From: Bacteroidales bacterium
GTDB lineage: Bacteria; Bacteroidota; Bacteroidia; Bacteroidales; FEN-979
DNA length: 33,459 nt
Direction: 5' to 3'
Assembly (NCBI GenBank): GCA_028706295.1
Contig: JAQWBQ010000005.1
Coordinates: forward strand, 75,395-108,853
Made by a program: the position numbers and the translations under genes. Every line of letters begins with the position of its first letter. Within the stretch, counting starts at the first letter, position 1. Below, piece by piece: positions 8,220 through 27,263 of this stretch. The notes beneath the pieces were generated by a model. The model was not told the origin of the DNA. It saw only the letters and a list, made by a program, of their open reading frames with translations, and did not search any database.

Positions 8220-8428
8220 CACCATGTCACCATATAACCATTTCACAACATCACCACGACGCTATTACATCAATTTCACCATTCCATCAATGTTACCTTC
8301 AACCATCCGCTAATTTCACCATATCACTATGTCACCATCTCACCATGTAACCATATCACTACATCACTTCATCACTATGTCACTATATCACCATGCCACC
8401 ATCTCACCAGATCACCACGACGCCATTC
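8220..8428. repeat. Degenerate octamer array, consensus CACCATNT
   Basis: The long spacer 8170-8608 holds no credible gene. From 8317 to 8428 fourteen 8-base units run without a single phase slip (CACCATAT, CACTATGT, CACCATCT, CACCATGT, AACCATAT and so on). An earlier block at 8220-8267 has six more units, joined by a less regular stretch. A 13-base word, ATCACCACGACGC, occurs at 8250-8262 and 8411-8423. The strict period of 8 does not fit coding use. Role unknown; it separates lgt from the T9SS protein gene. Confidence 0.88.
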
Positions 8429-8543: not shown

Positions 8544-8551
8544 TATATTTG
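8544..8551 (+). promoter_or_regulatory. Bacteroidota-type -7 promoter element
   Basis: TATATTTG matches the Bacteroidota -7 consensus TAnnTTTG and is followed by GCA, a common context. It lies 57 bases before the ATG at 8609, leaving a leader of about 50 bases. No convincing -33 TTTG is seen 19-21 bases upstream, so this rests on the -7 box alone. Confidence 0.5.
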
Positions 8552-8608
8552 CATTCTATGTTCATATGTCTGAACATTTGCACAAAGTAACCCTTAAAAC
8601 CCAACAAA

Positions 8609-9803: not shown

Positions 9804-10538
9804 ATGAGTTTTTCGATCGATCACAAAAGCAGTCTCCCGTTACACGCTCAGGTCGAGCAATTGCTCCGGGAGCTTATCGCTTCGGAAGAGTACCGGAAAG
9901 GAAAGTTCCTGCCCAATGAGATCAGTCTTGCAAAACAACTGGGGATCTCACGAAATACCGTCAGGCAGGCGACGAACAAACTGGTGTACGAAGGATTGCT
10001 GGTGCGGAAGAAAGGGGTTGGAACGCAGGCTGCCGGGAACAGTGTTGATACCCGGATCAACAACTGGCTGAGTTTTACCCAAGAGATGAAATCAAAAGGC
10101 ATTCAGATCCGGAATTTCGAAATTTCGACCGAATGGATAGAAGCCCAGGATGAGATAGCCCAGTTTTTCAGGATACCGCCCGGAAAAAAGATACTGAAGA
10201 TGACCCGTTTAAGAGGAAGGATGGAGTATCCTTTTGTTTACTTCATCTCCTATTTTCATCCCATGGTTGGCCTTACCGGCGATGAAGATTTCACAAAGCC
10301 TTTATATGAAATCCTGGAAAAGGAGCACTCGGTTATTGCAAAGCTTTCGAAAGAAGAGATATCGGCGCGGGCGGCCGATAAATTTCTCGCCCAAAAACTA
10401 AAAATTAACACCGGTGATCCGATCCTGAAGCGGAAGCGGTATGTGTTTGATCCGGGGAAAAGGCCTATCGAGTACAATATTGGTTATTACCGGGCCGATA
10501 GTTTCATTTATACCATTGAAAGTGAGCGTGACGTATAA
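9804..10538 (+). CDS. GntR family transcriptional regulator (HutC/UTRA type), probable PUL regulator
   Basis: A 244-residue one-component regulator. The N-terminal winged helix (about 8-76) includes LHAQVEQLLRELIASEEY, LPNEISLAKQLGISRNTVRQATNKLVYEGLL and the wing RKKGVGTQ. The C-terminal part (about 88-240) fits the UTRA effector domain, with FFRIPPGKKILKMTRLRG, YFISYFHP and KRKRYVFDPGKRPIEYNIGYYRAD. UTRA domains of this branch bind small ligands, often sugar phosphates. The gene ends 49 bases before susC, on the same strand, and is the only regulator in the cluster. There is no hybrid two-component system, ECF sigma/anti-sigma pair or SusR here. It probably senses an intracellular product of the pathway; the ligand is not known. 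Confidence 0.9.
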   Translation: MSFSIDHKSSLPLHAQVEQLLRELIASEEYRKGKFLPNEISLAKQLGISRNTVRQATNKLVYEGLLVRKKGVGTQAAGNSVDTRINNWLSFTQEMKSKGIQIRNFEISTEWIEAQDEIAQFFRIPPGKKILKMTRLRGRMEYPFVYFISYFHPMVGLTGDEDFTKPLYEILEKEHSVIAKLSKEEISARAADKFLAQKLKINTGDPILKRKRYVFDPGKRPIEYNIGYYRADSFIYTIESERDV

Positions 10539-10587
10539 TCATGCATTCATCTTATCTGTCATCCACCTGAAAAGAAAATAACTGAGT

Positions 10588-13500
10588 ATGTCCAGAACCT
10601 TTGTATTGTTACTGCTGCTATTGCCATTTGCAGCCTTGAGTCAGCAACGAATTATCACCGGAACCGTAAAGGATGCAGCCGATGGAAGCACCTTACCCGG
10701 AGTCACCATCCTGGAAAAGGGCACCGCCAATGGCACCACAACCGATTCGAAGGGTAATTTCAGCCTGAAAATCAATGAATCCTCTAAGTTTCTTATCTTT
10801 TCATTCATTGGGATGAGAACGATTGAGGTGCCGGTGAAGGAATCCAATGTTATGCATGTCAGCATGGAGGCTGTCAACACCACGCTCGACGAGGTCGTCG
10901 TGATCGGCTACGGAGCCGTAAAAAAGAGTGACCTCACCGGTTCCGTTGCAAGCGTTAAAGCCGATGAGATGAAAATGATTCCTGTCAATTCCCTGGACCA
11001 GGGAATCCAGGGAAAAGTCACCGGGGTTCAGGTGACTCAATTGTCGTCGCAACCGGGTGGCGCCACGATGGTGAGAATCCGCGGCGGTAATTCCATCATG
11101 GCGGGGAATGAACCCCTTTACGTGATCGACGGGGTGCTTGTCGAAAGCCAGGTCGACCTGTCGTGGATCGGTTCACCGGCACAGAATGGTCTGAGCTCCA
11201 TCAACCCCAATGACATTGAGTCGATGGAGATCCTGAAGGATGCTTCCGCAACGTCGATTTACGGGGCCAAGGGTGCGAATGGTGTGGTTCTCATCACTAC
11301 AAAAAAAGGGAAATCGGGTAAGGACAATATTACTTTCGAAACCTACTTCGGAACACAGATCAAGGCAAAGGATATCGAGGTCATGAATGCCTCACAATTT
11401 GCTAGGCTTTATGATGAAGCCGGGTACAATGCCGATTCCACTTATGTGCCCCTATACCCCAATCCCGACAGTTTAGGGGCCGGCACCGACTGGCAATCGG
11501 AGATTTACCGGAATGCTCCGATCCAAAACTACCAGGTGAGTTTTTCCGGCGCCAACGATAAAACTTCATACGCTTTGAGTCTGGGATATTACAATCAAAA
11601 AGGGATCATTTACGGTTCCGATTTTAAGCGTTATTCCTTCCGGACCAACCTCGACCGAAAGATGACCAAGAAATTAACAGGTGGAACCAACCTGAGTTAT
11701 ACGCAAACCGTGTCAAACACCGTTCCGACCGACACGCCGGGGGGATTTTTCCCGGGTGTCGTGAACACAGCCTTGATTTTTAATCCGGCACTGCCGGTGT
11801 ATGATTCAACCGGACAGTACACCCTTACCGACCCCAACGCGGATGCCTGGCTCGACAATCCTGTGGCAGTCACCCGGGATGTGGATGCCGTGGATAAAGT
11901 CAGCCGGTTCCTTGGCAATGTTTATCTGGAATATACCATTTTCCAGGATTTGAAGTTCAGAACCAATTTTGGCGCCGACATTTACCATTCGGTGCAGGAC
12001 ATGTATACACCGCGGTATGTTTACTCCGGCTCGTTCAATGATGGCCAGGCCCGTTTTGCCACCACCGACCTTCAAAACTATATTTTCGACAATACCCTGA
12101 CCTATAACCACATCTGGAACAAGATTCACAAATTCACTGCAATGGCCGGGATGACCTATCAAAACAACACAACGCGGACTTTTATCGATATCGCCACAGG
12201 ATTCCCGAACGACATCCTGGGGTATTACGGCATTCAGAATGCGACCAACATGCCGACCATCTATTCCTCCTTCACCGAATCAGCGGCTGTGTCGTATCTT
12301 GCCAGGGTCAACTACAATCTGAAAGAAAGGTATTTATTTACCGTGACCTGTCGTGTTGACGGTTCCTCCAAATTCGGTTCGAATAACCGCTTTGCTACCT
12401 TTCCTTCGGCTGCGGTTGCCTGGAGGCTTTCGGAGGAGAACTGGCTGAAGGAGGTTCGTTGGATCTCCAACATGAAGCTCAGGATGAGTTATGGACTAAG
12501 CGGGAATGACCGTATTGCCAATTATGCCTTTATCAGGACGATTTCCTCATCGGTTTACTACTTCAATAACTCTTTTCCAGGTACGGGTTTTGCGCCTGAT
12601 AATCCGGGAAACAACAACCTGAAATGGGAGACCACCGCACAATTCGATGTCGGATTGGATGTAAGTGTGGTTAACGGCCGGATTGCCGCGACGGTTGATT
12701 ACTACAACAAACGAACTTCCGATCTGCTCTACTATTCGAATCTTCCCTGGGCAACCGGTTACAGCTCCTACCTGAACAACATCGGAAAGCTCAGGAACAG
12801 CGGGGTAGAACTCGCATTGAATACCATGAATTTCGTCGGGGCTTTCAAATGGAACAGTTCTCTCAACGTGTCGATCAACCGCAATATGGTGACCGACCTG
12901 AACGGATCGGAACTGTACATTAACAACGACACGTACAAACTGAAGATCGGGAACTGGGCGGTGATCCGGGAAGGCGAACCAATGGGCAGCTTTTACGGTC
13001 TGCGGGCTGACGGAATATGGCAGACTGCTGAAGCTGAGGTTGCCGCCAAATACGGTGCAAAACCAGGAGATTTTAAGTATGTCGATAAAAATAATGACGG
13101 AAAAATCAATTCCGATGACTGTGAGATCATCGGTCATGCGCTGCCCGATTTTACATGGGGTTTCAACAATACTTTTTCTTTCAAGAATTTTACACTTGAC
13201 ATATTTCTGCAGGGAAGCCAGGGAAACCAGATTCTCAACAGCAACCGGTTTGAGCTGGAATCGGGTAATGGTTTATCGAATGCTTCCGTAAACCTGTTGG
13301 ACCGGTGGACTCCGGAAAACCCAAGCAATGTTTATCCCCGGGCAAACAGGAATGCAGACTACCTTCACATGTCGGATCGGTATCTGGAGGATGGATCCTA
13401 CGTCCGGATCAAGACCATCACACTGTCGTATGACTTACCGGAGAAGGCAGTCAATGCCATAAGGCTTTCGAAGATAAAAGTTTATGTAACTGCCCAAAAC

Positions 13501-13638
13501 ATGTTTACGTTCACAAAATACACCGGGTTCGATCCGGAGGTTGGTTCATTCGGTCTTGACAACACCCGGCTGGGATACGATTTCGGCTCTTATCCATCGG
13601 TGAAGACCTATATTATCGGGGCAAGTATCAGCTTTTAG
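10588..13638 (+). CDS. SusC/RagA family TonB-dependent outer-membrane transporter
   Basis: A 1016-residue outer-membrane importer for glycan fragments. A signal peptide (about 1-19, cut after ALSQ) is followed by a carboxypeptidase-regulatory-like domain (about 20-100: ITGTVKDAADGSTLPGVTILEKG). Next is the TonB-linked start of the plug, DEVVVIGYGAVKKSDLTGSV, then the plug signature MVRIRGGNSIMAGNEPLYVIDGVLVE and INPNDIESMEILKDASATSIYGAKGANGVVLIT. The remaining ~750 residues are aromatic-rich barrel strands ending in GASISF with a terminal Phe. It pairs with the SusD gene 78 bases downstream and takes energy from TonB/ExbBD encoded elsewhere. Length and order are ordinary for the family. The imported glycan cannot be deduced from this protein alone. 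Confidence 0.97.
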   Translation: MSRTFVLLLLLLPFAALSQQRIITGTVKDAADGSTLPGVTILEKGTANGTTTDSKGNFSLKINESSKFLIFSFIGMRTIEVPVKESNVMHVSMEAVNTTLDEVVVIGYGAVKKSDLTGSVASVKADEMKMIPVNSLDQGIQGKVTGVQVTQLSSQPGGATMVRIRGGNSIMAGNEPLYVIDGVLVESQVDLSWIGSPAQNGLSSINPNDIESMEILKDASATSIYGAKGANGVVLITTKKGKSGKDNITFETYFGTQIKAKDIEVMNASQFARLYDEAGYNADSTYVPLYPNPDSLGAGTDWQSEIYRNAPIQNYQVSFSGANDKTSYALSLGYYNQKGIIYGSDFKRYSFRTNLDRKMTKKLTGGTNLSYTQTVSNTVPTDTPGGFFPGVVNTALIFNPALPVYDSTGQYTLTDPNADAWLDNPVAVTRDVDAVDKVSRFLGNVYLEYTIFQDLKFRTNFGADIYHSVQDMYTPRYVYSGSFNDGQARFATTDLQNYIFDNTLTYNHIWNKIHKFTAMAGMTYQNNTTRTFIDIATGFPNDILGYYGIQNATNMPTIYSSFTESAAVSYLARVNYNLKERYLFTVTCRVDGSSKFGSNNRFATFPSAAVAWRLSEENWLKEVRWISNMKLRMSYGLSGNDRIANYAFIRTISSSVYYFNNSFPGTGFAPDNPGNNNLKWETTAQFDVGLDVSVVNGRIAATVDYYNKRTSDLLYYSNLPWATGYSSYLNNIGKLRNSGVELALNTMNFVGAFKWNSSLNVSINRNMVTDLNGSELYINNDTYKLKIGNWAVIREGEPMGSFYGLRADGIWQTAEAEVAAKYGAKPGDFKYVDKNNDGKINSDDCEIIGHALPDFTWGFNNTFSFKNFTLDIFLQGSQGNQILNSNRFELESGNGLSNASVNLLDRWTPENPSNVYPRANRNADYLHMSDRYLEDGSYVRIKTITLSYDLPEKAVNAIRLSKIKVYVTAQNMFTFTKYTGFDPEVGSFGLDNTRLGYDFGSYPSVKTYIIGASISF

Positions 13639-13659
13639 CTAAACCTGTCACGAGTAAAC

Positions 13660-13682
13660 CAAAAGACAAATCAAAAGACAAA
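13660..13682. repeat. Short direct repeat in the susC-susD spacer
   Basis: CAAAAGACAAA occurs twice (13660-13670 and 13672-13682) with one base between, followed by a similar CAAAAC. It sits in the 78-base A-rich spacer, which also has AGGAAGG two bases before the susD ATG. That purine stretch is too close for a standard Shine-Dalgarno site. Confidence 0.6.
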
Positions 13683-13716
13683 CAAAACAATAAGCATCTA
13701 ATAAAACAGGAAGGCA

Positions 13717-15162
13717 ATGAAAAAGATATCGACCCTCTTTGTATCTATCCTCATTCTGGCGGCAGCATCGTGCACCAAGGAACTGGATCAGGAGCCGCAC
13801 CAGATTTATTACGACAATTATTACCAGACAGGCGATGATGCGCTGACCGCGGTGAATGCCGTTTATGATGTGCTCGGATCGGTCAACCAGTATTCGAGCT
13901 ATTTGTGGCTGATCCAGGACATCGGCTCGGACGATTGCAATGCCCGGGTGACCCTGAACGATCCGAACCTGCATGATATCAACAATTATTCACTCAAGAC
14001 CGATAACAACTATCTCGCTAAGATTTGGCAGGGATCCTACCTTGGGATCAGCAGGGCAAACATCGTGTTAGAAAAAGTTCCCGGTATTTCGATGGACACC
14101 GCGCTCAAGGCACGGATTCTTGGCGAGGCGCGTTTTTTAAGGGCGCTGAACTACTTTAACCTCGTCAGGTTGTTTGGCGATGTCCCGTTGGTCACTGTTC
14201 CGGTATCGGCCAACCTTACCCCTGAAGAACTCTATCCTCCGAGGACTCCGGTCATGAAAGTTTATGTCCAGATTATTGCCGACCTGGACATCGCAGCCGC
14301 AAAACTTCCCGCAAAATACACCAATCCCAACGACAAGGGACGGGCCACCAGTGGGGCAGCGCTCGGTGTTCTTTCAAAAGTTTACCTGACCTTGAAGGAT
14401 TGGGATCATGCTGTTTCCGCTGCCAGACAGGTAATCGAATCGAACGTTTATGCCTTGCACCCCGATTACGCCACAAACTGGAAAGAGGCCAGTAAGAATG
14501 GGATCGAGTCGGTGTTTGAGGTTCAATTTTACCGGAAAGTGACATCGGAAAACTCACAAATGGTAATTTCGGGTCTTCCATCTATTCCCGGGCTTTTCGC
14601 GGCAGGGGTTGAGATCATGTTGCCTACCGAAGATCTTCTGACAAGCTTCGATACCAACGATTACCGGAAAGAGGTGACCTTTTTCGATCAATACTGGCAA
14701 TACACCTTCGAACCGCACATTTGGAAATACTGGGATCAGGTTGCATATAAACCTGCCGCTACCAGCGCCTCCGGGGCTGATTTCATGGTGATGCGCTACG
14801 CGGAAGTACTGCTGATCTTTGCCGAGGCGCTGAATGAAGCCAACGGTGGCCCAACCGCCGAAGCTTACGAGGCCATCAACAGAATCCGCGAGCGGGCCAG
14901 GAACGGTAATACCTCTGCCCTCCCCGATCTGAGCGGACTGAGCCAGGATGAGTTCAGAAAAGCCGTGATGCTGGAGCGCAGGCACGAGTTTGTCAATGAA
15001 GGTCAGCGGTGGTACGATCTCGTGAGAACCGGGACGCTGATCGAGAATGTTAAGAAGGCCAAAGGCGACAAGTCGAACCCCTCCTCTTTCAATTATCTGT
15101 TCCCGATACCGCAACGGGAAAGAGATATAAATCTGAATCTAACACAGAATCCGGGATACTGA
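13717..15162 (+). CDS. SusD/RagB family glycan-binding outer-membrane lipoprotein
   Basis: A 481-residue surface lipoprotein that caps the SusC transporter and captures glycan. The signal peptide ends in a lipobox, ILAAASC, with lipidated Cys19. The SusD fold is shown by the N-terminal TALTAVNAVYDVLG-like helices, LGEARFLRALNYFNLVRLFGDVPLV (TPR-like core), YPPRTPVMKVYVQIIADLDIA, the C-terminal MVMRYAEVLLIFAEALNEANG, INRIRERARN, and the final FRKAVMLERRHEFVNEGQRWYDLVRTG with LFPIPQRERDINLNLTQNPGY. It is the invariant partner of the upstream SusC. It ends 61 bases before the esterase gene, in one co-directional run. Confidence 0.97.
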   Translation: MKKISTLFVSILILAAASCTKELDQEPHQIYYDNYYQTGDDALTAVNAVYDVLGSVNQYSSYLWLIQDIGSDDCNARVTLNDPNLHDINNYSLKTDNNYLAKIWQGSYLGISRANIVLEKVPGISMDTALKARILGEARFLRALNYFNLVRLFGDVPLVTVPVSANLTPEELYPPRTPVMKVYVQIIADLDIAAAKLPAKYTNPNDKGRATSGAALGVLSKVYLTLKDWDHAVSAARQVIESNVYALHPDYATNWKEASKNGIESVFEVQFYRKVTSENSQMVISGLPSIPGLFAAGVEIMLPTEDLLTSFDTNDYRKEVTFFDQYWQYTFEPHIWKYWDQVAYKPAATSASGADFMVMRYAEVLLIFAEALNEANGGPTAEAYEAINRIRERARNGNTSALPDLSGLSQDEFRKAVMLERRHEFVNEGQRWYDLVRTGTLIENVKKAKGDKSNPSSFNYLFPIPQRERDINLNLTQNPGY

Positions 15163-15223
15163 TAGAATTTACCATTGACAAGATTTACGATTTACGATTG
15201 AATTTCGGGTTAAAATCGGAGAA

Positions 15224-17203
15224 ATGAAAAACGGCATAAAGATATTCTTCCTCTTTTCATTCCTTGCTGTAACAATCAGTGCCGGGGCTATCATTCGTAT
15301 GCCGGTCATCTTCCAGAACAACATGGTGCTGCAGCGCGACAAGGAGGTCGCAATATGGGGTTTTGGCTCAGCCGGTGAAAAGGTGACCGTCATTTTCAGA
15401 GAATTGAAGATTCAAACAACGACAGACGAAAATGGACGGTGGTTGATTCACCTTCCTTCGCAGAAAGCCGGTGGTCCTTATGAAATTTCCATCCGTGGTG
15501 AAAGCAATGTTATTGAACTGAAGAACATCCTTTTCGGCGATGTCTGGATTTGTGGCGGGCAATCGAACATGCAGTTCAGCCTGGATCAGATCGGGCACGT
15601 TCCGCACGACACAACCGCGATCAGTCACTCATCGATACGGATATTCACTGCCCACATTGGCATGGATTATATCCCTGTTGACGATCTGAAAGGAGGTGTT
15701 TGGAAACAAGCCACAGCCGCAACGATCCGGAATTTTTCTGCAACCGGTTATTTCTTCGGGAAGTTCCTGTACGACAGCCTTAAGGTTCCTATCGGACTGA
15801 TCAGCGACAACCTTGGCGCCACTTCTATTGAGACCTGGATTAGCCGTGACGCCTTAGGTCAGTTTCCGCAGTTTGGTGAATACGTCAGGAACTTCCTGGT
15901 TCCTGGGAATAGTGCCAGGGAGGTAGAAGACAATTTTACCAGCATAAAGTCGGAATGGGAAAAGAAATATTACCTGATTGGCAAGGGGTTGGAGGAACGC
16001 TGGTATCTTCCGGAAACGGATACATCGGGATGGAAACAGATGGAAGTCCCCGGCTGGTGGGAGGATCATGGATTGGCCGACTTTGACGGGGTGGTTTGGT
16101 TCAGGCGTCAATTCGACCTCCCTCCGACCTTCACAGGTGATACACTCTTTTTACCATTGAACCAGATCGACGATTACGACATCACCTGGGTCAACGGGCA
16201 GAAAGTTGGTGAGGGGTATGGGAACCAGACTTGGCGAAGATACAAAGTTCCCGCCGGGATTCTCAAACCAAAAGGGAATACACTGGTCGTCAGGGTTCTT
16301 GATACCGGCGGCCGGGGAGGCATGTACACCCATGCCATCTGGTGGGAGCCGTATCTTGTGGGCAGCTGGTCTTACAGGACCGATGGCAGCATTGATGTGA
16401 CCAAATTCCTGAAACCGCACGTGGTCAACATGTCACCCTTTTCAACTCCGGCGGTCCTCTACAATGCCAACATCGCTCCGCTCACCCCGTTGGCCATCAA
16501 AGGATTCATCTGGTACCAGGGCGAAAGCAATGCTGCCCGGGCTGCAGAATATGGACAGTTGTTCCCGGCTATGATCCTTGACTTGCGGTCGAAATTTGGC
16601 CAGGGAGATCTGCCGTTTCTTTTTGTTCAATTAGCCAATCACCATCCTGAGTCAGACATACCCTCGGAAAGTACCTGGGCTGAGCTCAGAGAAGCACAGG
16701 CCGGAGCTTTGAGGCTGAAAAATACCGGTATGGCGGTGACGATCGACATCGGCGATGCTTACGACATTCATCCCCGGAATAAAATGGAAGTCGGTCGTCG
16801 GCTTGGTTTGCTTGCTCTGAATATCGCTTATGGAAGACAGCTAGTGTGTTCCGGTCCGACCTTCACAAAAGCCGAAGTTCGATCCGACTGTGTGATCCTG
16901 CATTTCAACCAAGAAAACCCACTCATCACAAAGGATAAATACGGGTACGTTAGGGGGTTTGCTGTGGCCGGAAACGACAGGGAATTCCACTGGGCCAAAG
17001 CGACGATCCATCAGGGCGATCTGATCATTGCGAGTGAAAATGTGAAGGAGCCTGTTGCTGTCCGCTATTTATGGTCCGATAATCCCGGGAGTATAGATTT
17101 GTACAACAAAGAGGGGTTGCCGGTGGCGCCATTCAGAAGCGACGATTGGCCGCTTTCCACTGCCGGCCGGGTTTATTCCGAAAATCCCTGGGAGCAGAAT
17201 TGA
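15224..17203 (+). CDS. Sialate O-acetylesterase-like SGNH esterase
   Basis: A 659-residue exported carbohydrate esterase that probably removes acetyl groups from the imported glycan. A signal peptide (about 1-24, FLAVTISAGA) is followed by a beta-sandwich, then the SGNH blocks: ICGGQSNMQFSLD with nucleophile Ser114, IKGFIWYQGESNA (425-437) and DAYDIHPRNK with Asp514 and His516 completing the triad. Between blocks, residues about 265-385 form a galactose-binding-like sandwich (WKQMEVPGWW, VVWFRRQFDLP, DYDITWVNGQKVG), as in other Bacteroidota members. The family includes 9-O-acetyl sialate esterases but many members act on other acetylated glycans. No sialidase or sialic acid catabolism gene lies here, so a mannan or hemicellulose ester is as likely. 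It precedes GH92 by 65 bases. Confidence 0.9.
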   Translation: MKNGIKIFFLFSFLAVTISAGAIIRMPVIFQNNMVLQRDKEVAIWGFGSAGEKVTVIFRELKIQTTTDENGRWLIHLPSQKAGGPYEISIRGESNVIELKNILFGDVWICGGQSNMQFSLDQIGHVPHDTTAISHSSIRIFTAHIGMDYIPVDDLKGGVWKQATAATIRNFSATGYFFGKFLYDSLKVPIGLISDNLGATSIETWISRDALGQFPQFGEYVRNFLVPGNSAREVEDNFTSIKSEWEKKYYLIGKGLEERWYLPETDTSGWKQMEVPGWWEDHGLADFDGVVWFRRQFDLPPTFTGDTLFLPLNQIDDYDITWVNGQKVGEGYGNQTWRRYKVPAGILKPKGNTLVVRVLDTGGRGGMYTHAIWWEPYLVGSWSYRTDGSIDVTKFLKPHVVNMSPFSTPAVLYNANIAPLTPLAIKGFIWYQGESNAARAAEYGQLFPAMILDLRSKFGQGDLPFLFVQLANHHPESDIPSESTWAELREAQAGALRLKNTGMAVTIDIGDAYDIHPRNKMEVGRRLGLLALNIAYGRQLVCSGPTFTKAEVRSDCVILHFNQENPLITKDKYGYVRGFAVAGNDREFHWAKATIHQGDLIIASENVKEPVAVRYLWSDNPGSIDLYNKEGLPVAPFRSDDWPLSTAGRVYSENPWEQN

Positions 17204-17268
17204 TCGACAATACTGCCAATAAAAGTTGAATTTAAAAGTAAATTATAATTGAATAAACACAGGATACC

Positions 17269-20067
17269 ATGTCGATAAACCATACAATTTCAAAATTTGG
17301 CTGCCACCTCAATCACCCACCAATCCATCGGGTATCCAAAAGAATAAATTCGGTCATCATACTATCCATTACAATGTTGTTTGTGACCATCGCCGGGTTG
17401 GAAGGGTATGCCGGAACCGACAATATTGCCCCGAAGGCAAGAGTAACCGCCTCAACTTTCCTGAATGACCGGTTCAAACCCGGAAACGTTACGGATGGAC
17501 TGATCGGTCTCTCCGGTCTCGGGGAGTGGGCCTGCGAAGGGGTGACCACTTCGTGGGGATATGTCCGTTTTCCCTGGATCCAGCTTGATTGGGATCAGCC
17601 GCAAACCATCGAACGGATTGTTTTGTATGACCGACCTTCCCTGAAGGAATTCACCGCGGGTTGCAAACTCCTTTTCAGCGATGGCAGTTCCATTTATGTC
17701 AACGAAATTCCGAATGACGGCACTGCCAAGGCGATAACATTTCCACCCAAAACTGTAACATCAGTGAGGTTTATTACTACCGACGGGAATGGTAAAGATA
17801 TCGGGTTTTCGGAGATCGAGGTTTTCCCTGCCAGAACCAATGCCACCGATTACGTAGGATGGGTGGATCCCTACATCGAGACCAACCGGGGCCGCTACAT
17901 CTTTTTCATCACAGGCTCCCGGCCTTTCGGTATGATCTCAGCCGCCCCGCACACACGCAACAAAAACCAGAACGGGGGAGGCTACAACTACAATGAACGG
18001 GAAGTGCTCGGTATCGGTCAGATCCACGCCTGGATGATGTCGGGGATAGGCATCATGCCAGCGGCCCCTTCGGTCAACCCAACAGGCTGGGAATCTGCCT
18101 GGAAATCGGTCTTCAGCCACGATGATGAAATCGTCCAGCCGGGTTATCACCGGATGTTCCTCCGCAGCCCGGGTACCTGGGTCGAGCTGACTGCCACCGA
18201 CCGGGTAAGTTTCTACCGCTTCCGGTTCACCCGAGAAGAAGAAACACAGGTCCTGGTCGACCTGGGCAGCCACATCAGCAACAGTACCATGTGCAACCTC
18301 GACCTGCGAAAGGTGAACGACCGCGAAGTGGAAGGGTCCTTCAGCTCTACCAACCGTTTCTGGGGGGGACCGAAAGAGGTAAAAGTATTTTTTATCATTC
18401 AGTTCGACAAACCGGTCGGTTCGTTGGATGGCTGGAAAGGAAAAAATCTGTTGAAGCGTATCACCGAACTGAAAGGCGACAGTGCGGGGATCTTGGCCAA
18501 ATACAGGGTCAGGCCCGGGGATCTGCTTCAGATAAAGGTCTCCATCTCCTATACCAGTATTGAAAATGCAAGGAATAACCTGCTGACGGAATGTACCACC
18601 TGGGATTTCGACGCTGTACGGTCCGAAACACGGCGTATCTGGAATGAATGGTTGGGCAAAATCGACGTGAAAGGCGGAACTGATGCCGACCGGATCAAAT
18701 TCTACACCGACCTGTGGCATGTTCTTCTGGGCCGTCAGAAGATCAACGATGTGTCGGGCGACTATCCCGACCGTACCACAGGCATCCGCGATGGTTCCTT
18801 CACCAATGCCGTTTTCAAGGTAAAGCAGATTCCGAAACTGGAAAACGGGCAGTTGAAATACAACATGTACAGCTCCGATGCCTTCTGGCTTACCCAGTGG
18901 AACCTGAACATCCTGTGGGGATTAGGCTGGCCGGAGGTGCAGGATGAGTTGTCGGCATCCATGCTACAGTACGCCGATAACGGAGGATTACTCCCCCGGG
19001 GACCCTGTGGCGGAGGTTACTCGTACATTATGACCGGCGATCCGGCGGTCAGCCTCATCGGAAGCACTTTTCAAAAGGGATTATTGACAAAAGCAGATCC
19101 GGAGCACGCCTTTGAGGTCATGAAGCAGAACCAGATGCCGGGTGGCATGCTGGGAGATCCTGAAGATGTGAAGTTTTATATAAAGAATGGCTGGTGGAAA
19201 GACAACGCCGGGATCACCATCGAAGCAGCCTTCCAGGACTGGGTCGTTGCCCAGATGGCATATAAACTGGGGAAGAAAAGCGATTTTAAAACCTTTATGA
19301 AGCGGTCGCAGGGCTGGAAAGCCTGTTTTGATCCAGGTCAGAAATTATTGTTCCCGAAGGATGCCAATGGGAAGTTCATCCACCTCAATCCGTTGAACGG
19401 TCAGGGTTGGGTGGAGGCCAATGCCTGGCAGGCCACTTTCGGCGTATCACACGACATACCGGGCCTGGCCACGCTGATGGGAGGCAACGAAATGCTTTGC
19501 GACAAACTGAACCACGCCTTTGAAATGGCAGCGCCTCAGGATTTTGTATTCGACTACAACGACGGATACGTGAGCTATGCCAACCAACCTGGGGTTTCGA
19601 ACGCCCATGTCTTCAGCCATGCCGGGAAACCCTGGCTGACACAGCACTGGGTACGCCGGGCCAAAGAACAGGCATATGGCGGCATCACACCCGACCTGGG
19701 ATACGGCGGGCACGACGAAGACCAGGGCCAGATGGGCGGGTTAAGCGCGCTGATGTCAATCGGGATTTTCAGCTTGCAAGGAAATGCCGCGGTGACGCCG
19801 GTTTACGAGATTACCAGTCCGGTGTTTGATACCGTTATAATTAAACTGAATCCCAGGTATTACAAGGGTAAGGAATTTACCATCGTTACCCATCAGAACA
19901 CGAAAGAGAATATGTATATTCGGAAGGCAAAATTGAATGACAACGACTTGAACAACTTTTGGTTTACACACGATGAATTTGCCCGGGGCGGGAAACTTGA
20001 GATCTGGCTGGGAAAAGAACCGAACCAAAACTGGGGAACCGGTGAATTGCCGCCGGCAGTGCAATAG
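17269..20067 (+). CDS. Divergent GH92 alpha-mannosidase-like glycoside hydrolase with N-terminal discoidin domain
   Basis: A 932-residue exported enzyme. After a hydrophobic signal (about 28-48) comes an F5/8-type-C-like domain (about 50-190: APKARVTASTF, WIQLDWDQPQTIERIVLYDRP, FSEIEVFP). The GH92 region starts at YVGWVDPYIETNRG (195-208) and includes RPFGMISAAPHTR. The helical barrel holds GGYSYIMTGDPAVSLIGSTF, WVEANAWQATFGVSHDIPGL with Glu716 at the place of the family acid (EGNAWQ), and GYGGHDEDQGQMGGLSALMSIGIF with Asp816-Asp818. Known GH92 enzymes are Ca-dependent exo-alpha-mannosidases with these two acidic regions. The first block differs from typical members (usually ...HLSGTG; here AWMMSGIG), so linkage and even sugar specificity may differ. 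The family call rests on motif order; mannose is inferred from the family. Confidence 0.85.
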   Translation: MSINHTISKFGCHLNHPPIHRVSKRINSVIILSITMLFVTIAGLEGYAGTDNIAPKARVTASTFLNDRFKPGNVTDGLIGLSGLGEWACEGVTTSWGYVRFPWIQLDWDQPQTIERIVLYDRPSLKEFTAGCKLLFSDGSSIYVNEIPNDGTAKAITFPPKTVTSVRFITTDGNGKDIGFSEIEVFPARTNATDYVGWVDPYIETNRGRYIFFITGSRPFGMISAAPHTRNKNQNGGGYNYNEREVLGIGQIHAWMMSGIGIMPAAPSVNPTGWESAWKSVFSHDDEIVQPGYHRMFLRSPGTWVELTATDRVSFYRFRFTREEETQVLVDLGSHISNSTMCNLDLRKVNDREVEGSFSSTNRFWGGPKEVKVFFIIQFDKPVGSLDGWKGKNLLKRITELKGDSAGILAKYRVRPGDLLQIKVSISYTSIENARNNLLTECTTWDFDAVRSETRRIWNEWLGKIDVKGGTDADRIKFYTDLWHVLLGRQKINDVSGDYPDRTTGIRDGSFTNAVFKVKQIPKLENGQLKYNMYSSDAFWLTQWNLNILWGLGWPEVQDELSASMLQYADNGGLLPRGPCGGGYSYIMTGDPAVSLIGSTFQKGLLTKADPEHAFEVMKQNQMPGGMLGDPEDVKFYIKNGWWKDNAGITIEAAFQDWVVAQMAYKLGKKSDFKTFMKRSQGWKACFDPGQKLLFPKDANGKFIHLNPLNGQGWVEANAWQATFGVSHDIPGLATLMGGNEMLCDKLNHAFEMAAPQDFVFDYNDGYVSYANQPGVSNAHVFSHAGKPWLTQHWVRRAKEQAYGGITPDLGYGGHDEDQGQMGGLSALMSIGIFSLQGNAAVTPVYEITSPVFDTVIIKLNPRYYKGKEFTIVTHQNTKENMYIRKAKLNDNDLNNFWFTHDEFARGGKLEIWLGKEPNQNWGTGELPPAVQ

Positions 20068-20074
20068 AAGGACT

Positions 20075-20204
20075 ATGTGCTAATGTGCTGATGTGCTAAT
20101 TTGAGAATTTGAGGATGTAAAAATTTTGAATTTTGACATTTGACATTTTGAATTAATAATTTTCCCTATTCGCTAATCGCTGATCGCTAATCGCTAATTT
20201 GAAT
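20075..20204. repeat. Composite octamer-then-heptamer intergenic array
   Basis: Immediately after GH92, six 8-base units run in register from 20075 to 20122 (ATGTGCTA, ATGTGCTG, ATGTGCTA, ATTTGAGA, ATTTGAGG, ATGTAAAA). The period then changes to about seven: ATTTTGA twice, CATTTGA, and CGCTAAT, CGCTGAT, CGCTAAT, CGCTAAT at 20171-20198. An 18-base word ending CGCTAATC (20161-20178) recurs at 22031-22048, and a 20-base word (20076-20095) recurs at 23210-23229. No gene is seen in the spacer. Confidence 0.85.
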
Positions 20205-20226
20205 TTGTTTTTAAGAATTATCTGCT

Positions 20227-21987
20227 TTGATATCAAACTACAATAAATATCCGGAAGTAACGGTTCATGGCTGGGAAGGACATTTCTGCAGTGGTTGGGA
20301 CCCAATCATAAACCGGCTGCAGAGAGAGGTGTCAGGAATCCCGCTCCGGAAAAAGACCGTAGTGGTCGAATGCTACCAGGGAATTCATGACGGTGAGGTG
20401 CTGGAGGCTTTGTCGGAAGGGCTGAGACCCGATCTGACTATTCTCTCCTCCGAAGCATTCCTGCCTGAATCCGTGATCAGGACTATGACCCAGCCCGATG
20501 TAACCGACGACCGGATCTTCGGCCGTTTGACCTCGCTGAACATGGAAGACTTTCTGGATCCTGACCGCCTGGTTACTGCGAGGGCAAAAATCGAAGGGCT
20601 TAATGAGGGTCTCGTACTGGTTTACGGACCGGGCGCTTCGCTCCTGCTCGCTGATCCCGGCCTTATGATCTATGCCGACATGGCCCGCTGGGAGATCCAG
20701 CTCCGGATGCGCCGCAACGAGGTCTCAAACCTCGGGATCAGCAACCGGGACGAAAATATTGAAGGAAAATATAAACGTGGCTACTTTGTCGACTGGAGGG
20801 TCTGCGACCGGTTGAAAAGAGAGGTCATGCCTAAATCGCACTTCGTTCTCGACACCAACCGCAGGAACGCGCCTGGGATGATCCTGGCAGACGCCTTTTT
20901 CGCAGGACTTAGGCAAACGGCGAATCAGCCATTCAGCGTCGTCCCCTACTTCGATGCCGGTCCCTGGGGCGGCCAGTGGATGAAAGAAGTGTGCGACCTG
21001 CCCGACGATTCACCTAATTATGCCTGGTGCTTTAACTGCGTGCCCGAGGAGAACAGTCTTTACCTGGATTTCGGAGGGAACCGGTTTGAAACCCCCGCCA
21101 TCAACCTGGTCTTTTTCCGGCCCGAGGAGTTACTTGGCAGGTATGTCAGGCAACGTTTCGGCGACGAATTTCCCATCCGCTTCGATTTCCTCGATACCAT
21201 GGGCGGAGGTAACCTGAGCCTTCAGGTACATCCGCTGACCGGCTACATCCGGGAGCAATTCGGCATTCATTACACCCAGGATGAAAGTTATTACCTGGTG
21301 GAAGCGGGCGAAGGTGCAAAAGTTTATTTAGGGCTGAAAGAGGGTGTCGACCCGAAACAAATGATCGAAGATCTGATCAGGTCGGAGACAACTGATATCC
21401 CGTTCGACGATTCGCAGCACGTGCAGTCGTGGCCCGCCAAAAAACATGATCATTTCCTAATCCCGGGAGGCACTGTGCATTGTTCCGGAAAGGACTGCAT
21501 TGTGCTTGAGATCAGCGCCACACCCTACATCTTCACGTTCAAACTCTGGGATTGGGGTCGCCTCGGACTCGACGGCAAACCCCGGCCCATCAACATCGGT
21601 CATGGATCAAGGAATATCCAGTGGAACAGGACCGAATCCTGGGTTCGACAAAACCTGGTGAACCGGTTCGAAAAGATAGCTTCGGGCGACGGTTGGTACG
21701 AAGAGAAGACCGGGTTGCATAAACTCGAATTTATCGAGACACGCCGGCACTGCTTTTCGAAGAGGGTTATACACCATACCATGGGCGGGGTGCATGTGAT
21801 CTGCCTAGTCGAAGGGCGCGAGGTCGTGGTTGAGAGCCCCTCCGGCTCTTTCGAACCCTTCGTGGTCCATTATGCCGAGACATTCATCGTACCCGCCGCG
21901 GTAGGCGAATACACCATCCGGCCTTTCGGAGCGTCGGAAGGAACAGAATGTATCACCATCAAAGCATATATTAGAATGGACAATTGA
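20227..21987 (+). CDS. Two-domain protein with C-terminal class I mannose-6-phosphate isomerase (cupin) domain
   Basis: A 586-residue cytoplasmic protein. The C-terminal half (about 315-586) matches short type-I phosphomannose isomerases: LSLQVHPLTGY with zinc ligands Gln333 and His335, DESYYLVEAGEGAKVYLGL with Glu353, and IPGGTVHCSG with His418, then FTFKLWDWGR. The N-terminal ~300 residues are not a standard part of that enzyme. They contain VVVECYQGIHDGEVLEAL, GLVLVYGPGASLL and MARWEIQLRMRRNE, and resemble a P-loop kinase fold without a usable Walker A. The start is TTG at 20227: an in-frame stop lies at 20212 and no nearby ATG exists. The last residues MDN and the stop are repeat-derived. 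With the ROK kinase next door it probably converts mannose-6-phosphate to fructose-6-phosphate. Confidence 0.8.
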   Translation: MISNYNKYPEVTVHGWEGHFCSGWDPIINRLQREVSGIPLRKKTVVVECYQGIHDGEVLEALSEGLRPDLTILSSEAFLPESVIRTMTQPDVTDDRIFGRLTSLNMEDFLDPDRLVTARAKIEGLNEGLVLVYGPGASLLLADPGLMIYADMARWEIQLRMRRNEVSNLGISNRDENIEGKYKRGYFVDWRVCDRLKREVMPKSHFVLDTNRRNAPGMILADAFFAGLRQTANQPFSVVPYFDAGPWGGQWMKEVCDLPDDSPNYAWCFNCVPEENSLYLDFGGNRFETPAINLVFFRPEELLGRYVRQRFGDEFPIRFDFLDTMGGGNLSLQVHPLTGYIREQFGIHYTQDESYYLVEAGEGAKVYLGLKEGVDPKQMIEDLIRSETTDIPFDDSQHVQSWPAKKHDHFLIPGGTVHCSGKDCIVLEISATPYIFTFKLWDWGRLGLDGKPRPINIGHGSRNIQWNRTESWVRQNLVNRFEKIASGDGWYEEKTGLHKLEFIETRRHCFSKRVIHHTMGGVHVICLVEGREVVVESPSGSFEPFVVHYAETFIVPAAVGEYTIRPFGASEGTECITIKAYIRMDN

Positions 21988-21998
21988 AAATTGAAAAT
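21975..21998. repeat. 24-base copy of the uvrA-end repeat, carrying the stop of the isomerase gene
   Basis: Identical over 24 bases to 2171-2194. In both places the sequence AATGGACAATTGA encodes the final Met-Asp-Asn and supplies the TGA. The two genes are otherwise unrelated and about 20 kb apart. Confidence 0.95.
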
Positions 21999-22037
21999 AA
22001 CAGATGAGGACTCTTTTGCCCTAATTCCTATTTCCCT

Positions 22038-22079
22038 ATTCGCTAATCACTATTCGCTAATCCCTGATTTTGAATTTTG
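22038..22079. repeat. Heptamer array between isomerase and ROK genes
   Basis: Six 7-base units in register: ATTCGCT, AATCACT, ATTCGCT, AATCCCT, GATTTTG, AATTTTG. It belongs to the same class as the arrays in the flanking spacers and shares an 18-base word (22031-22048) with 20161-20178. It ends 17 bases before the ATG of the ROK gene. Confidence 0.8.
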
Positions 22080-22096
22080 AACAATAATCCTTTCTC

Positions 22097-23203
22097 ATGC
22101 TTTTATCCAACGACAACCACCTGATCCTCACCCTCGATGCGGGAGGAACGAATTTTGTATTTTCCGCCTATCAGGGCGGACGTGAAATTGCTAATCCAAT
22201 CACACTGCCCTCTAATGCGCATGATCTCGACCGGTGCATTGGCACCATTTATTCCGGATTTGAAAAAGTTAGCGCTGAGCTCCCCCGGCCAGCCGACGCC
22301 ATCAGCTTCGCGTTTCCCGGTCCGGCTGATTACTCCCTGGGAATCATCGGCGATCTGCCCAATTTCAAGGCCTTCAACGACGGAGTACCATTAGGTCCCA
22401 TGCTGGAAGAGCGCTTCGGATTGCCGGTTTTCATCAACAACGACGGCAACCTGTTTGCATATGGAGAAGCGCTCGCAGGATTCCTTCCCGACCTGAACCG
22501 ACGGATCATCGATTATGGCGGCATCAAACAGTTCCGCAACCTGGTCGGCATGACGCTCGGCACCGGATTTGGTTGCGGTATCGTGCTGAACAATATCCTG
22601 ATGGAAGGAGACAATTCGAATGATGCCGGAATCCATAACACGTCCAACCGGTACAATCCAGCCTGGAATGCCGAAGAAAGCATTAGCACCCGGGCCATTC
22701 AGCGAGTCTATTGTGAAGGAGCAGGACTCCATTCGACATCGTTGATGCCTAAAGACATTTACGAAATAGCGGTGGGATTGTCACAGGGGAACAGAGAAGC
22801 TGCCATTCGCTCCTTTCAGATTTTCGGAGAGGCCCTGGGAAATTCGGTTGCAAACATGATCACCCTGATCGACGGTATCGTGGTGATTGGCGGTGGGTTG
22901 GCGACAGCCTGGGATCTATTCGCTCCCGCCATGTTCAAGGAGATTGACCGCATGTACTTCAGTCCGTCGGATGAAGAATATGCCCGCCTCTCTGTAAAAG
23001 TGTACAATCTGGAAGACAAGAACACCTTTAAAGAATTTGCAACCGGATCAATCAGATCCATTTCACTTCCTACCGGCAACAGAACCATAAGGTACGATGA
23101 ACTCCAGCGGATCGGGGTTGGATTGTCGAAACTAAGCGCCAGCAAGGCCATTGCCATCGGAGCAAACGCCTTCGCAGTGCAAAGGCTCACGGGGAAGGAA
23201 TGA
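22097..23203 (+). CDS. ROK family sugar kinase-like protein lacking the zinc-binding motif
   Basis: A 368-residue cytoplasmic protein of the ROK (repressor/ORF/kinase) family without a DNA-binding domain, so a kinase rather than a repressor. ATP site: LTLDAGGTNFVFSAY with Asp14 (phosphate-1 loop). Catalytic base: VFINNDGNLFAYGEALAG with Asp116. Phosphate-2: VGMTLGTGFGCGIVLN (150-165). Adenosine region: GIVVIGGGLATAWDLF. Usual ROK kinases follow with GEIGH and CxCGxxGC; here only a His (180) remains and no cysteines follow (GIHNTSNRYNPAWNAEES). The zinc-free insert also lengthens the protein. Placed after the isomerase and GH92, its likely role is phosphorylation of mannose or another hexose. 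Family is secure, substrate inferred. Confidence 0.85.
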   Translation: MLLSNDNHLILTLDAGGTNFVFSAYQGGREIANPITLPSNAHDLDRCIGTIYSGFEKVSAELPRPADAISFAFPGPADYSLGIIGDLPNFKAFNDGVPLGPMLEERFGLPVFINNDGNLFAYGEALAGFLPDLNRRIIDYGGIKQFRNLVGMTLGTGFGCGIVLNNILMEGDNSNDAGIHNTSNRYNPAWNAEESISTRAIQRVYCEGAGLHSTSLMPKDIYEIAVGLSQGNREAAIRSFQIFGEALGNSVANMITLIDGIVVIGGGLATAWDLFAPAMFKEIDRMYFSPSDEEYARLSVKVYNLEDKNTFKEFATGSIRSISLPTGNRTIRYDELQRIGVGLSKLSASKAIAIGANAFAVQRLTGKE

Positions 23204-23208
23204 CGCTG

Positions 23209-23292
23209 ATGTGCTAATGTGCTGATGTGAGAATTTGAGAGTTTGAGAATTGAACTTTGAGCTTTGAGCTTTGAACTTTGAACTTTAAGCTT
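23209..23292. repeat. Composite octamer-then-heptamer intergenic array after the ROK gene
   Basis: Five 8-base units (23209-23248: ATGTGCTA, ATGTGCTG, ATGTGAGA, ATTTGAGA, GTTTGAGA) are followed after two bases by six 7-base units (23251-23292: TGAACTT, TGAGCTT, TGAGCTT, TGAACTT, TGAACTT, TAAGCTT). The order and the octamer sequences repeat those after GH92. The array starts six bases after the ROK stop. The rest of the spacer (23293-23351) shows no clear signal. Confidence 0.9.
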
Positions 23293-23351
23293 TTTTCACA
23301 AAAATAGCCAATGCCTTATTTTAAATTTTGATTTAATCCCTGCAAAAGCCT

Positions 23352-24491
23352 ATGAACCCAATTAAACTCCACTTTTCCCGCCTGGCCATGCTCCTGCTGC
23401 TGGTCTGCCTGATGCCGAATCCCGGAAAGCCTCAGGAACCATCAACTTCCACTAAGGTTCCCGATACGCCATTTGACCGAAAATTCATGAAGATGTTCGC
23501 CCGTGATTGCTGTGGTGTGACCGGTGCCGACGGGGAGTACTCCGTTCTCCTGCCCGACGGGCGCACAGTCTGGATCTTCGGCGATTCCTTCCTCGGAACC
23601 GTCAATCCCGACCGCTCAAGAGAAAAACGCAAACCATGGTTCATCCGCAACAGCATGGCCGTGCAGGAAGCCGACACCCTGCGATCGCTATACCAGGTGA
23701 TCGACGGTTGGGAATCGTCGCTGGTCATCCCTCCCAATGCCCCAAAAGGGAAACAGTTTTCGGAGGATTCGCTCTGGTACTGGCCTGGCGACGGCTTCAT
23801 CGAGAACGGTGAACTCAAGGTTTTCATGACAGGATTCTACCAGGCCAAACCGGGCGATTGGGGATTTGCCTGGACCAGCGCCAATATTGCCACCTTTTCA
23901 CTGCCGGAGATCAAACTCGAAAGGATTGACCATTTCAATTATCCCGGAATTCATGAAATCCACTGGGGTCACGCAGTGTGCGACGGCGACGAACATCACA
24001 CTTACATTTACGGTGCAGAGGATAAGAGCAAGAACCTCTATGTTGCACGGGCGCCGAAAGGCAACATCCTCGCACCCTGGGAGTTCTATAACGGAAGTGA
24101 ATGGGTGAAGGACTCCCGGCAATCAAAACCCATGCTGGCCATACAGGGATCGGAACAATTCAGCGTATTTAAATTAAATGATAAATATGTTCTGGTAGTT
24201 CAGGAGGGTGGTTTTATGACCGGTGAGATCGTCTCCTACTATTCCGATTCGCCTTGGACGGGGTGGAAGAACAGGAAAGTCCTCTGCCACACCCGGCTGC
24301 CCGACGATGTCACTTCAACGGCCAACCTGTTTGCATACAACAGTCTGGCACATCCCCAGTTCATCGAAAACGGCCAGTTGCTGATCTCATCATGTATCAA
24401 CAGCTTCGTGGTGGATGATGTTTTCAGGGATGCCAGCAAATACCGGCCGGTGTTCCTCAGGGTGCCGGTCAGCCGGATCTTTGAGGAATGA
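23352..24491 (+). CDS. Exported DUF5005/DUF4185-like beta-propeller protein
   Basis: A 379-residue protein with an N-terminal signal (about 1-28, RLAMLLLLVCLMPNPGKPQ). Landmarks are CCGVTGADGEYSVLLPDGRTVWIFGDSFLG (about 54-83), LWYWPGDGFIENGELKVFMTGF, IHEIHWGHAVCDGDEHHTYIYGAED, SEQFSVFKLNDKYVLVVQEGG and FAYNSLAHPQFIENGQLLISSCIN. The recurring strand-turn-strand blocks suggest a five-bladed propeller like those of GH43/GH117-type enzymes, but catalytic residues cannot be assigned. The minus-strand protein at 25493-26905 shares the LPDGR-WxFGDS block, the FWPGHG-like block and the AHP-IENNELLVSYN-like block. I therefore read the two as paralogues. The position between the kinase and a CE1 esterase suggests a role in glycan cleavage or binding. 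Function not known. Confidence 0.7.
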   Translation: MNPIKLHFSRLAMLLLLVCLMPNPGKPQEPSTSTKVPDTPFDRKFMKMFARDCCGVTGADGEYSVLLPDGRTVWIFGDSFLGTVNPDRSREKRKPWFIRNSMAVQEADTLRSLYQVIDGWESSLVIPPNAPKGKQFSEDSLWYWPGDGFIENGELKVFMTGFYQAKPGDWGFAWTSANIATFSLPEIKLERIDHFNYPGIHEIHWGHAVCDGDEHHTYIYGAEDKSKNLYVARAPKGNILAPWEFYNGSEWVKDSRQSKPMLAIQGSEQFSVFKLNDKYVLVVQEGGFMTGEIVSYYSDSPWTGWKNRKVLCHTRLPDDVTSTANLFAYNSLAHPQFIENGQLLISSCINSFVVDDVFRDASKYRPVFLRVPVSRIFEE

Positions 24492-24559
24492 AATGCCCAT
24501 GGGAAGCGGATCGCACAAACCGCGAATGATATTTACATGAACCAGCATATTTAAAACCC

Positions 24560-25375
24560 ATGAAACGATCCCTTTTATTTCTCCCGGCACTGATTGCCAT
24601 CAGCCTGATCCTGAAGGCCCAGCAGCAGCACATCCTGAAATCGCCACACATCGCCATCGCCGACACAATCTGGGTTTTCACCCCATCCGATTATTCCAAA
24701 GACCCCGCAAAGCAGTTTCCGGTGGTTTACCTGTTGCACGGCTGGATGGGTTCCTATCACCAGTGGAACGACATCACCTCCTGCCAGTGGCTCGCCGACA
24801 GATATGGGGTTATCCTGGTCTGTCCCGACGGGCTCACCGACTCCTGGTACATCAACAGCCCGGCAATCAGGGAAAGTCAATACACCGATTTCTTTTTTCT
24901 CGATCTTTTTCCTTTCATTACAAAGAACTACCGCATCGATCCCGGCAATGTTTTCATCACAGGGCTGAGCATGGGAGGCCATGGCGCGCTATACCTTTTT
25001 GCACAAAAACCTGATCTGTTCAGGAGCGCCGGAAGTATAAGCGGTGTTCTGGATCTGAGTTTTTGCCGGACCGAATACAGGATTGATGATTACCTTGGAA
25101 TAAAGAATAAAAAATCGGCTGACAAGATCCTGAACCGTTACGCTGTTTCCGGGAATATCAAAAAAATCGCTGCCGCAGGGAAAAAGATCATCGTTTCGTG
25201 CGGAAGTTCAGACCCGTTTCTAAAACTGAACGACCATTTCAAAAAACAGTGTGATGCGAAGAAGATCGACATCACCTACCTAATAACACCCGGCGGACAT
25301 GATTATCCATACTGGAAATCGGCAATCGGGGCTCATCTTGAATTTTTCAGGAGGATAGTTGGGGCAGGGCATTGA
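24560..25375 (+). CDS. Exported alpha/beta-hydrolase esterase (putative esterase / CE1 type)
   Basis: A 271-residue serine hydrolase with a signal peptide (about 1-20, LIAISLILKA). The fold is marked by FPVVYLLHGWMGSYHQWND (oxyanion region), VILVCPDGLTDSWYINSP and the nucleophile elbow ITGLSMGGHGAL with Ser137. The acid is likely Asp218 (SCGSSDPFL) and the base His247 (TPGGHDYPYW). This is the esterase-D / CE1 group, which includes acetyl-xylan and feruloyl esterases and S-formylglutathione hydrolase; the export signal favours a carbohydrate ester substrate. It starts 68 bases after the propeller gene and is the last gene of the co-directional run. A minus-strand gene converges on it, with a weak 7-bp hairpin (25432-25456) between. 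Confidence 0.87.
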   Translation: MKRSLLFLPALIAISLILKAQQQHILKSPHIAIADTIWVFTPSDYSKDPAKQFPVVYLLHGWMGSYHQWNDITSCQWLADRYGVILVCPDGLTDSWYINSPAIRESQYTDFFFLDLFPFITKNYRIDPGNVFITGLSMGGHGALYLFAQKPDLFRSAGSISGVLDLSFCRTEYRIDDYLGIKNKKSADKILNRYAVSGNIKKIAAAGKKIIVSCGSSDPFLKLNDHFKKQCDAKKIDITYLITPGGHDYPYWKSAIGAHLEFFRRIVGAGH

Positions 25376-27241: not shown

Positions 27242-27263
27242 CAAAGAAAACAGCAAGATAGCG

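Follow-up and report, generated by a model that had tools for sequence, protein, structure and literature searches.

A GntR/UTRA-linked polysaccharide utilization locus, probably of the ManR kind, with a two-domain phosphomannose isomerase in a Bacteroidales genome

Predicted mannose regulons and the GntR-linked locus

Control of mannose metabolism by a GntR-family regulator, ManR (BT2103), was predicted in Bacteroides thetaiotaomicron by Ravcheev et al., whose account, in the part available to us, assigns to the predicted regulon (BT2103; BT2107-13) mannose uptake, conversion of mannose to fructose-6-phosphate, and an operon of alpha-mannosidases with SusC/SusD (PMC3878776). The HTCS_Man alpha-mannan regulons of the same organism also join mannosidases with SusC/SusD, but, as that part of the source describes them, differ in having hybrid two-component regulators and a motif of direct repeats of two 16-bp sites (PMC3878776). 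Here we describe a nine-gene polysaccharide utilization locus (PUL) with a GntR/UTRA regulator from a Bacteroidales bacterium, located at 9804-25375 of a 33,459-nt window (the whole stretch of DNA analyzed, to whose forward strand all coordinates refer). Alpha-mannosides are its most likely substrate, and we regard it as probably an alpha-mannoside PUL of ManR type.

The nine open frames that an earlier note on this DNA had reported, from the letters alone, are all present on the + strand; their spacers measure 49-159 bases, mostly short as that note had stated, and Pfam agrees with its gene identities for eight of the nine. The first encodes the ManR-like GntR/UTRA regulator (9804-10538, +; Pfam UTRA 6.5e-28, GntR 1.7e-17) and is followed by genes for a SusC-type TonB-dependent transporter (10588-13638, +; TIGR04056, 930.9 bits) and a SusD-type glycan-binding protein (13717-15162, +; PF07980 2e-35). 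The next product is an SGNH/SASA esterase with an inserted GH2-like beta domain (15224-17203, +; PF03629 1.5e-18) that carries GGQSNM at residue 111 and DIH at 514. The fifth is a member of glycoside hydrolase family 92 (GH92) with an N-terminal DUF7402/discoidin domain (17269-20067, +), for which Pfam (DUF7402/F5-F8, GH92N, and GH92) gave 388.1 bits against a cut-off of 24.6, and in which E716 and D816/D818, presumably the catalytic residues, line up with GH92 structures. It is indeed divergent, scoring 390.5 bits as compared to 632.6 and 599.3 for the other two GH92 proteins of the genome. A two-domain phosphomannose isomerase (20227-21987, +), a ROK sugar kinase (22097-23203, +), a DUF5005 propeller protein (23352-24491, +), and a PF00756 (CE1-like) esterase with GLSMG at residue 135 (24560-25375, +; Pfam 2e-23) complete the set. 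Since susC and susD lie side by side and are linked to genes for glycan enzymes, the nine genes qualify as a PUL of the SusC/D type. The gene order, which the earlier note had proposed to check in related genomes, is retained in another genome of the genus (G006) with the same genes at 94-99% identity, which argues that the genes did not come to lie together by chance.

With the ManR regulon, as far as the available part of PMC3878776 describes it, the locus shares a GntR-family regulator linked to SusC/SusD and alpha-mannosidase, an extracellular setting for the latter, and a route from mannose to fructose-6-phosphate. Mannose uptake lies inside the ManR regulon whereas the window unit has no permease, and the unit adds a DUF5005 protein and esterases that this part of the source does not name for ManR. 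Because no permease is under common control, we would class the locus as a ManR-like variant rather than as a full member. A locus of an uncultured Bacteroides sp. (L108, L209) fits the published ManR description, insofar as available, in that GntR stands with SusD-SusC, followed by GH92 and GH38 and then by MFS-ROK-isomerase, with three sites of the candidate operator described below. The earlier note knew of no described PUL with this set of genes; the predicted ManR regulon, even in the part of its account available, already has the general plan. No other PUL joining these parts was found described in the titles and abstracts searched, whose coverage left out most subscription journals. What is added beyond the ManR precedent is a candidate operator, the linkage of GntR to the isomerase, an isomerase with an orphan domain, and the likeness of DUF5005 to GH183.

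Homologs of the regulator were searched in 199 related genomes, own genome included (E <= 1e-35), and were found in 15. Comparison of coordinates by hand placed a homolog of the two-domain isomerase within 10 kb of GntR in 14 of these 15. These 14 include G135, where the isomerase is 43% identical, and G174, where the N-terminal domain occurs without the rest; in G028, the fifteenth, the genes are on different contigs. Long isomerase homologs (>=50% identity) occurred in 21 of the 199 genomes (again counting the own genome), and GntR was present in 13 of these 21 versus 2 of the 178 others (Fisher 2e-13, or 6e-13 when G151, with a 91-residue fragment of 74% identity at the end of a contig, is counted). 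The GntR regulator and the two-domain isomerase thus travel together.

Gene content was counted in 30 non-duplicate loci that carry GntR as judged by tblastn (GntR+), all of which had been collected via their isomerase homolog and from whose clusters the content profiles were built (L034, L074, L075, and L080 were left out as duplicates, L071-L073 come from elsewhere in the own genome, and L149, with a weaker, 42% identical GntR, was counted as GntR-). ROK was identified in 25 loci, SusC in 22, SusD in 21, MFS in 20, GH92 in 18, GH38 in 7 (either glycosidase in 22), and DUF5005 in 14. Elsewhere GH92 is sparse: of 100 relatives, 73 had it, and 66 of these carried 1-4 copies. The earlier note had made the two esterases central parts of the locus, a role that the related loci do not support, since relatives of the PF00756 and SGNH proteins were each found in only 3 of the 30 loci.

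The sugar kinase, the isomerase, and an orphan domain

The kinase belongs to the ROK family (PF00480, 83.2 bits against a cut-off of 22.9; 3.1e-23). Most ROK members have a CxCGxxGC zinc motif; the kinase has three Cys and no CxCG, and the description of it as zinc-less was correct. It matches PDB entry 3mcp over residues 1-364 (3.7e-117), but 3mcp carries the name glucokinase, whereas mannose is the predicted substrate of the window ROK. At E 1e-60, ROK relatives were found in 81 of the 199 genomes (window ROK counted), and a paralog of 46-49% identity occurs in 17 of the 18 other genomes of the genus, with an additional 97% copy in G006. In the own genome (95.6% complete), the PUL copy is the only ROK that was found.

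Neither Pfam nor NCBIfam gave a hit at E 0.01 for the product of 20227-21987. Similarity to the phosphomannose isomerase of B. subtilis (1qwr) was found for residues 233-458 (3.2e-9), in agreement with the earlier assignment as a two-domain, phosphomannose isomerase-like protein. In a fold model with a predicted local distance difference test (pLDDT) score of 92.5, the best PDB match was again 1qwr (E 9.1e-24; template modeling (TM) score 0.83 on the target) and fell in the isomerase part, with an alpha/beta domain at about residues 1-230 and the isomerase at about 233-586. Residues Q333, H335, E353, and H418, which we take to be the metal ligands of phosphomannose isomerase, are invariant in alignments of 21 and 44 rows. 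With the cupin fold and the metal-site residues both in place, the C-terminal part is, as judged from sequence and model, a class I phosphomannose isomerase. It resembles 1qwr in the fold of this domain and the metal-site region, and differs from it by the extra N-terminal ~230 residues, which belong to no recognized family.

The kinase also bears on an alternative that we consider unlikely, namely that the locus serves hexoses or glucans in general, with ROK as a duplicated glucokinase, the isomerase acting on another hexose-phosphate, and mannose not the main sugar. The paralogous ROK of the same-genus genomes, the glucokinase name of the nearest solved structure, and cupin glucose-6-phosphate isomerases beside the isomerase in some relatives would fit such a locus, but the presence of GH92 or GH38 in 22 of the 30 GntR+ loci and an isomerase fold with metal-site residues of the phosphomannose isomerase type argue for mannose.

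Beyond the long homologs given above, 14 of the 199 genomes had homologs of 37-43% identity over most of the length, and many weaker matches were separate isomerases of ~325-350 residues. In named genomes, a scan returned at least 588 relatives; the 80 of them that were examined had 54-63% identity and were mostly from Bacteroidota, with records titled Acidobacteria, Verrucomicrobia, Spirochaetaceae, Vibrio, and Photobacterium also among them (bins can be mis-assigned). The N-terminal 230 residues are conserved: 18 columns are invariant in an alignment of 27 rows. With loosened thresholds, neither Pfam nor NCBIfam produced a credible match for this domain family (best 0.078), and its profile matched only ferritins, from 0.15, among PDB sequences. 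A supposed likeness to uridine kinase was rejected, as all probabilities stayed below 1% when hhalign compared the domain with ten uridine kinases and three longer proteins of the PRK family. Isomerases and cupin proteins led the best 50 of 1648 matches in a fold search with the whole model, in which the N-terminal domain was not searched apart. The N-terminal domain is an orphan.

Two arrangements in relatives bear on its role. In L054, L060, and L062, one frame of 887-893 residues has a ROK-like stretch ahead of both isomerase domains (L054 was tested with Pfam, L054 and L060 were aligned, and L062 was judged solely by its opening residues and the extent of its BLAST match), and this fusion suggests that kinase and isomerase act jointly. 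In the one-contig genome G174, the N-terminal domain occurs alone as a 176-aa frame (8866-9396 of L070), divergently oriented from a 57% identical GntR. Because it is found there as a separate frame, the orphan domain may work alone. An initial guess that a 432-aa protein of locus L123 belongs to GH125 was dropped, as Pfam gave other six-hairpin families.

A candidate operator and the extent of the unit

A repeated TATGTTCATACATA-like element was noticed by eye in upstream regions of the collected loci. Exact ATGT-N4-ACAT was counted at 37 non-coding sites in 26 of the 30 GntR+ loci, as compared to a mean of 1.9 and a maximum of 6 in 200 dinucleotide shuffles; the 84 GntR- loci had 8 sites in 7 loci (shuffle mean 4.6, maximum 10). 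When spacers of 0-11 were scanned, spacer 4 alone was prominent in GntR+ loci (37 sites; 0-3 for the others), and spacers 4 and 9 gave 8 each in GntR- loci. With eleven alternative half-sites made of these letters, 1-5 sites each were counted (in 28 of the 30 loci, without L102 and L113). Nine named loci had a site near a gene start and no GntR in the stretch, and the genomes of seven (those other than L093 and L109) were searched. GntR was found elsewhere in the genome for five of the seven (L077, L088, L108, L133, and L136) versus 3 of 20 site-less control loci, which were L123 and the 19 searchable loci among 20 picked by hand (Fisher 0.011), a test that is partly independent of motif discovery. 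L102 and L113, with GntR within the stretch, were excluded from this follow-up.

In the window, the candidate operator TATGTCTGAACATT (8565-8578, +; core ATGT-N4-ACAT at 8566-8577) lies 30 nt ahead of the start codon of por (8609-9484, +), a gene for a secreted protein with a T9SS type A sorting domain (TIGR04183, 8.6e-12). Upstream of the operator is the -7-like promoter box TATATTTG (8544-8551, +), the letters of which were checked against the window. In 22 of 44 site-gene pairs, as compared to 6.1% of 3417 control positions, the operator core is preceded at a distance of 2-19 nt by the end of TAnnTTTG, a pattern that we take to be the Bacteroidota -7 promoter consensus. The place of the operator just downstream of -7-like boxes suggests a repressor; activation is also conceivable. 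A degenerate TCACCATA octamer array occupies 8220-8426, upstream of the box and operator.

Relatives of por were found in 5 of the 30 GntR+ loci (window counted), near GntR in each, and L036, L037, L040, and L041 have a site that precedes the por relative or coincides with its start. Since the candidate operator sits just upstream of gene 8609, the unit probably starts there rather than at 9804, and with a conserved por gene and an operator ahead of gntR the boundary drawn by the earlier note should probably be moved to about 8540. It is quite improbable, in our judgment, that GntR controls only part of the set and that several units lie side by side. Such an arrangement would explain the short repeats and the lengths of 109-159 nt in the spacers between the GH92, isomerase, ROK, and DUF5005 genes, the 319 nt between por and gntR, and the single credible site in the window, but gene content and operator place are conserved and relatives have sites before susC, pmi, mfs, GH92, and GH38. 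Independent of this, the repeats with GCTAATGTGCTGATGTG in the spacers at 20075-20100 and 23205-23229 are members of a dispersed family, and exact matches to the pattern GCTAATNNGCTNATNNG number 28 in the genome versus 0 for its reversed control. A sigma-70 promoter scan (21 versus 22.4 in shuffles) was left unused, as was a terminator scan (27 versus 21.4).

Several observations weigh against an alpha-mannoside PUL of the ManR kind, the glucokinase name of 3mcp among them. The likeness to ManR is one of published description and of gene content. The operator was first spotted by eye in part of the data in which it was then counted; four GntR+ loci (L052, L055, L082, and L092) have no exact non-coding site, the sole exact site of L092 being inside an over-long called GntR frame; L076 and L110 carry a site but no GntR was found in the genome search; and three of the site-less controls do have GntR. 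In the own genome, TATGTN4ACATW is not enriched (13 matches versus 15 for a reversed control) and gives no genome-wide regulon support, so that the operator was rejected as a genome-wide signal there. The window has 14 matches to TATGTN4ACATA with <=2 mismatches, a number reached by 6 of 100 shuffles (mean 9.4); of these 14 matches, just the candidate operator has a single mismatch. The case for the site in the window is accordingly made by its conserved position and not by its letters alone. The unit yielded no sugar permease, in contrast to the 20 of 30 related loci with MFS, and a 43% identical permease relative elsewhere in the genome has no site in its stretch. Lastly, among 59 GntR- named loci, GH92 or GH38 occurred in 27, cupin glucose-6-phosphate isomerases in 24, and DUF5005 in 4, and the first two of these counts make a wider hexose role possible.

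The DUF5005 protein, the proposed pathway, and its meaning

A DUF5005 profile of 24 relatives matches 4hbs (BACOVA_04882) at 8e-46 and the GH183 endo-D-arabinofuranase EndoMA1 (8hhv/8ic1) at 1e-12, and the fold model (pLDDT 87.8) has TM scores of 0.76 and 0.62 to these structures, respectively. According to the available part of its description, EndoMA1 requires D33, D51, and E243 (PMC10509167). By a hand count along the alignment, the nearly invariant E268 of the DUF5005 protein aligns with the catalytic E243, and D60/D78, invariant in 24 rows, are 18 residues apart like D33/D51, an equivalence given by spacing only. The protein is like EndoMA1 and 4hbs in its propeller fold, the aligned Glu, and an Asp pair with a spacing of 18, and differs from GH183/DUF4185 in that it is placed in a separate Pfam family. 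Sequence and model together indicate that it resembles the GH183 enzyme in fold and may keep its catalytic residues, which makes it a candidate GH183-like glycosidase. A second, convergent DUF5005 gene (25493-26905, -), of uncertain membership in the unit, has SPGF where the first has SEQF and therefore lacks this Glu.

These features allow, tentatively, a sharper form of the alpha-mannoside interpretation that is compatible with it: the DUF5005 protein could be an active GH183-like furanosidase and GH92 could handle the mannose part of an acylated arabino- or galactofuranosyl-mannan of fungal, lichen, or actinobacterial origin. The profile and fold matches to EndoMA1, the aligned Glu, the Asp spacing, and the enrichment of DUF5005 in GntR+ loci (14 of 30 versus 4 of the 59 GntR- named loci; Fisher 2e-5) speak for a furanose-decorated substrate. 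They are offset by a DUF4185 (PF13810) score of 36.6 bits, under the GH183 cut-off of 39.5, by the alignment (again by hand count) of EndoMA1 R198 with a variable position and of the conserved R233 with Lys, by the reliance of the D60/D78 equivalence on spacing, and by the fact that no D-arabinose or galactofuranose gene was recognized among the Pfam hits of the unit.

Under the ManR-kind interpretation that we favor, the unit would be co-transcribed and SusC/SusD would bind and import an oligosaccharide, from which the two esterases would strip acyl groups and GH92 would release mannose, while the DUF5005 protein would probably cut another linkage, perhaps a furanosidic one. Mannose would reach the cytoplasm via a permease encoded elsewhere, be converted by the ROK kinase to mannose-6-phosphate, and then by the two-domain isomerase to fructose-6-phosphate. 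The GntR/UTRA protein would be a ManR-type repressor that, without inducer, is bound to TATGTCTGAACATT, immediately after the -7 box, and so prevents use of the promoter ahead of gene 8609, until a mannose metabolite (as a first guess, mannose-6-phosphate) lifts it off. The core of the earlier proposal, an alpha-mannoside locus with a kinase and an isomerase leading to fructose-6-phosphate and conserved with GntR/UTRA, is thereby upheld by computation (gene content, conservation, linkage, operator enrichment, and operator place near promoter boxes); its claims of a lack of precedent and of central esterases are not. A bolder proposal, which we regard as doubtful, is that DUF5005 is a retaining furanosidase family beside GH183, that the GntR module dismantles acylated, furanose-decorated alpha-mannans, and that the orphan N-terminal domain couples ROK to the isomerase. 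Downstream of the locus, Rfam detected a tRNA-Met gene (27168-27242) and nothing else, and a 279-aa frame (31166-32005) without a Pfam hit has a start that gives the impression of a BadF/GlcNAc-kinase-type ATPase.

For a PUL regulator that is not of the common hybrid two-component, extracytoplasmic function (ECF) sigma, or SusR type, the locus provides an operator and a start site that can be tested, and this GntR-type PUL regulator occurs in many Bacteroidota records. It also offers, from sequence and model comparisons, a likely function for DUF5005, a family named in a single paper of the literature searched, and it singles out for study an orphan domain that, in records from several phyla, is attached to a sugar-phosphate isomerase.

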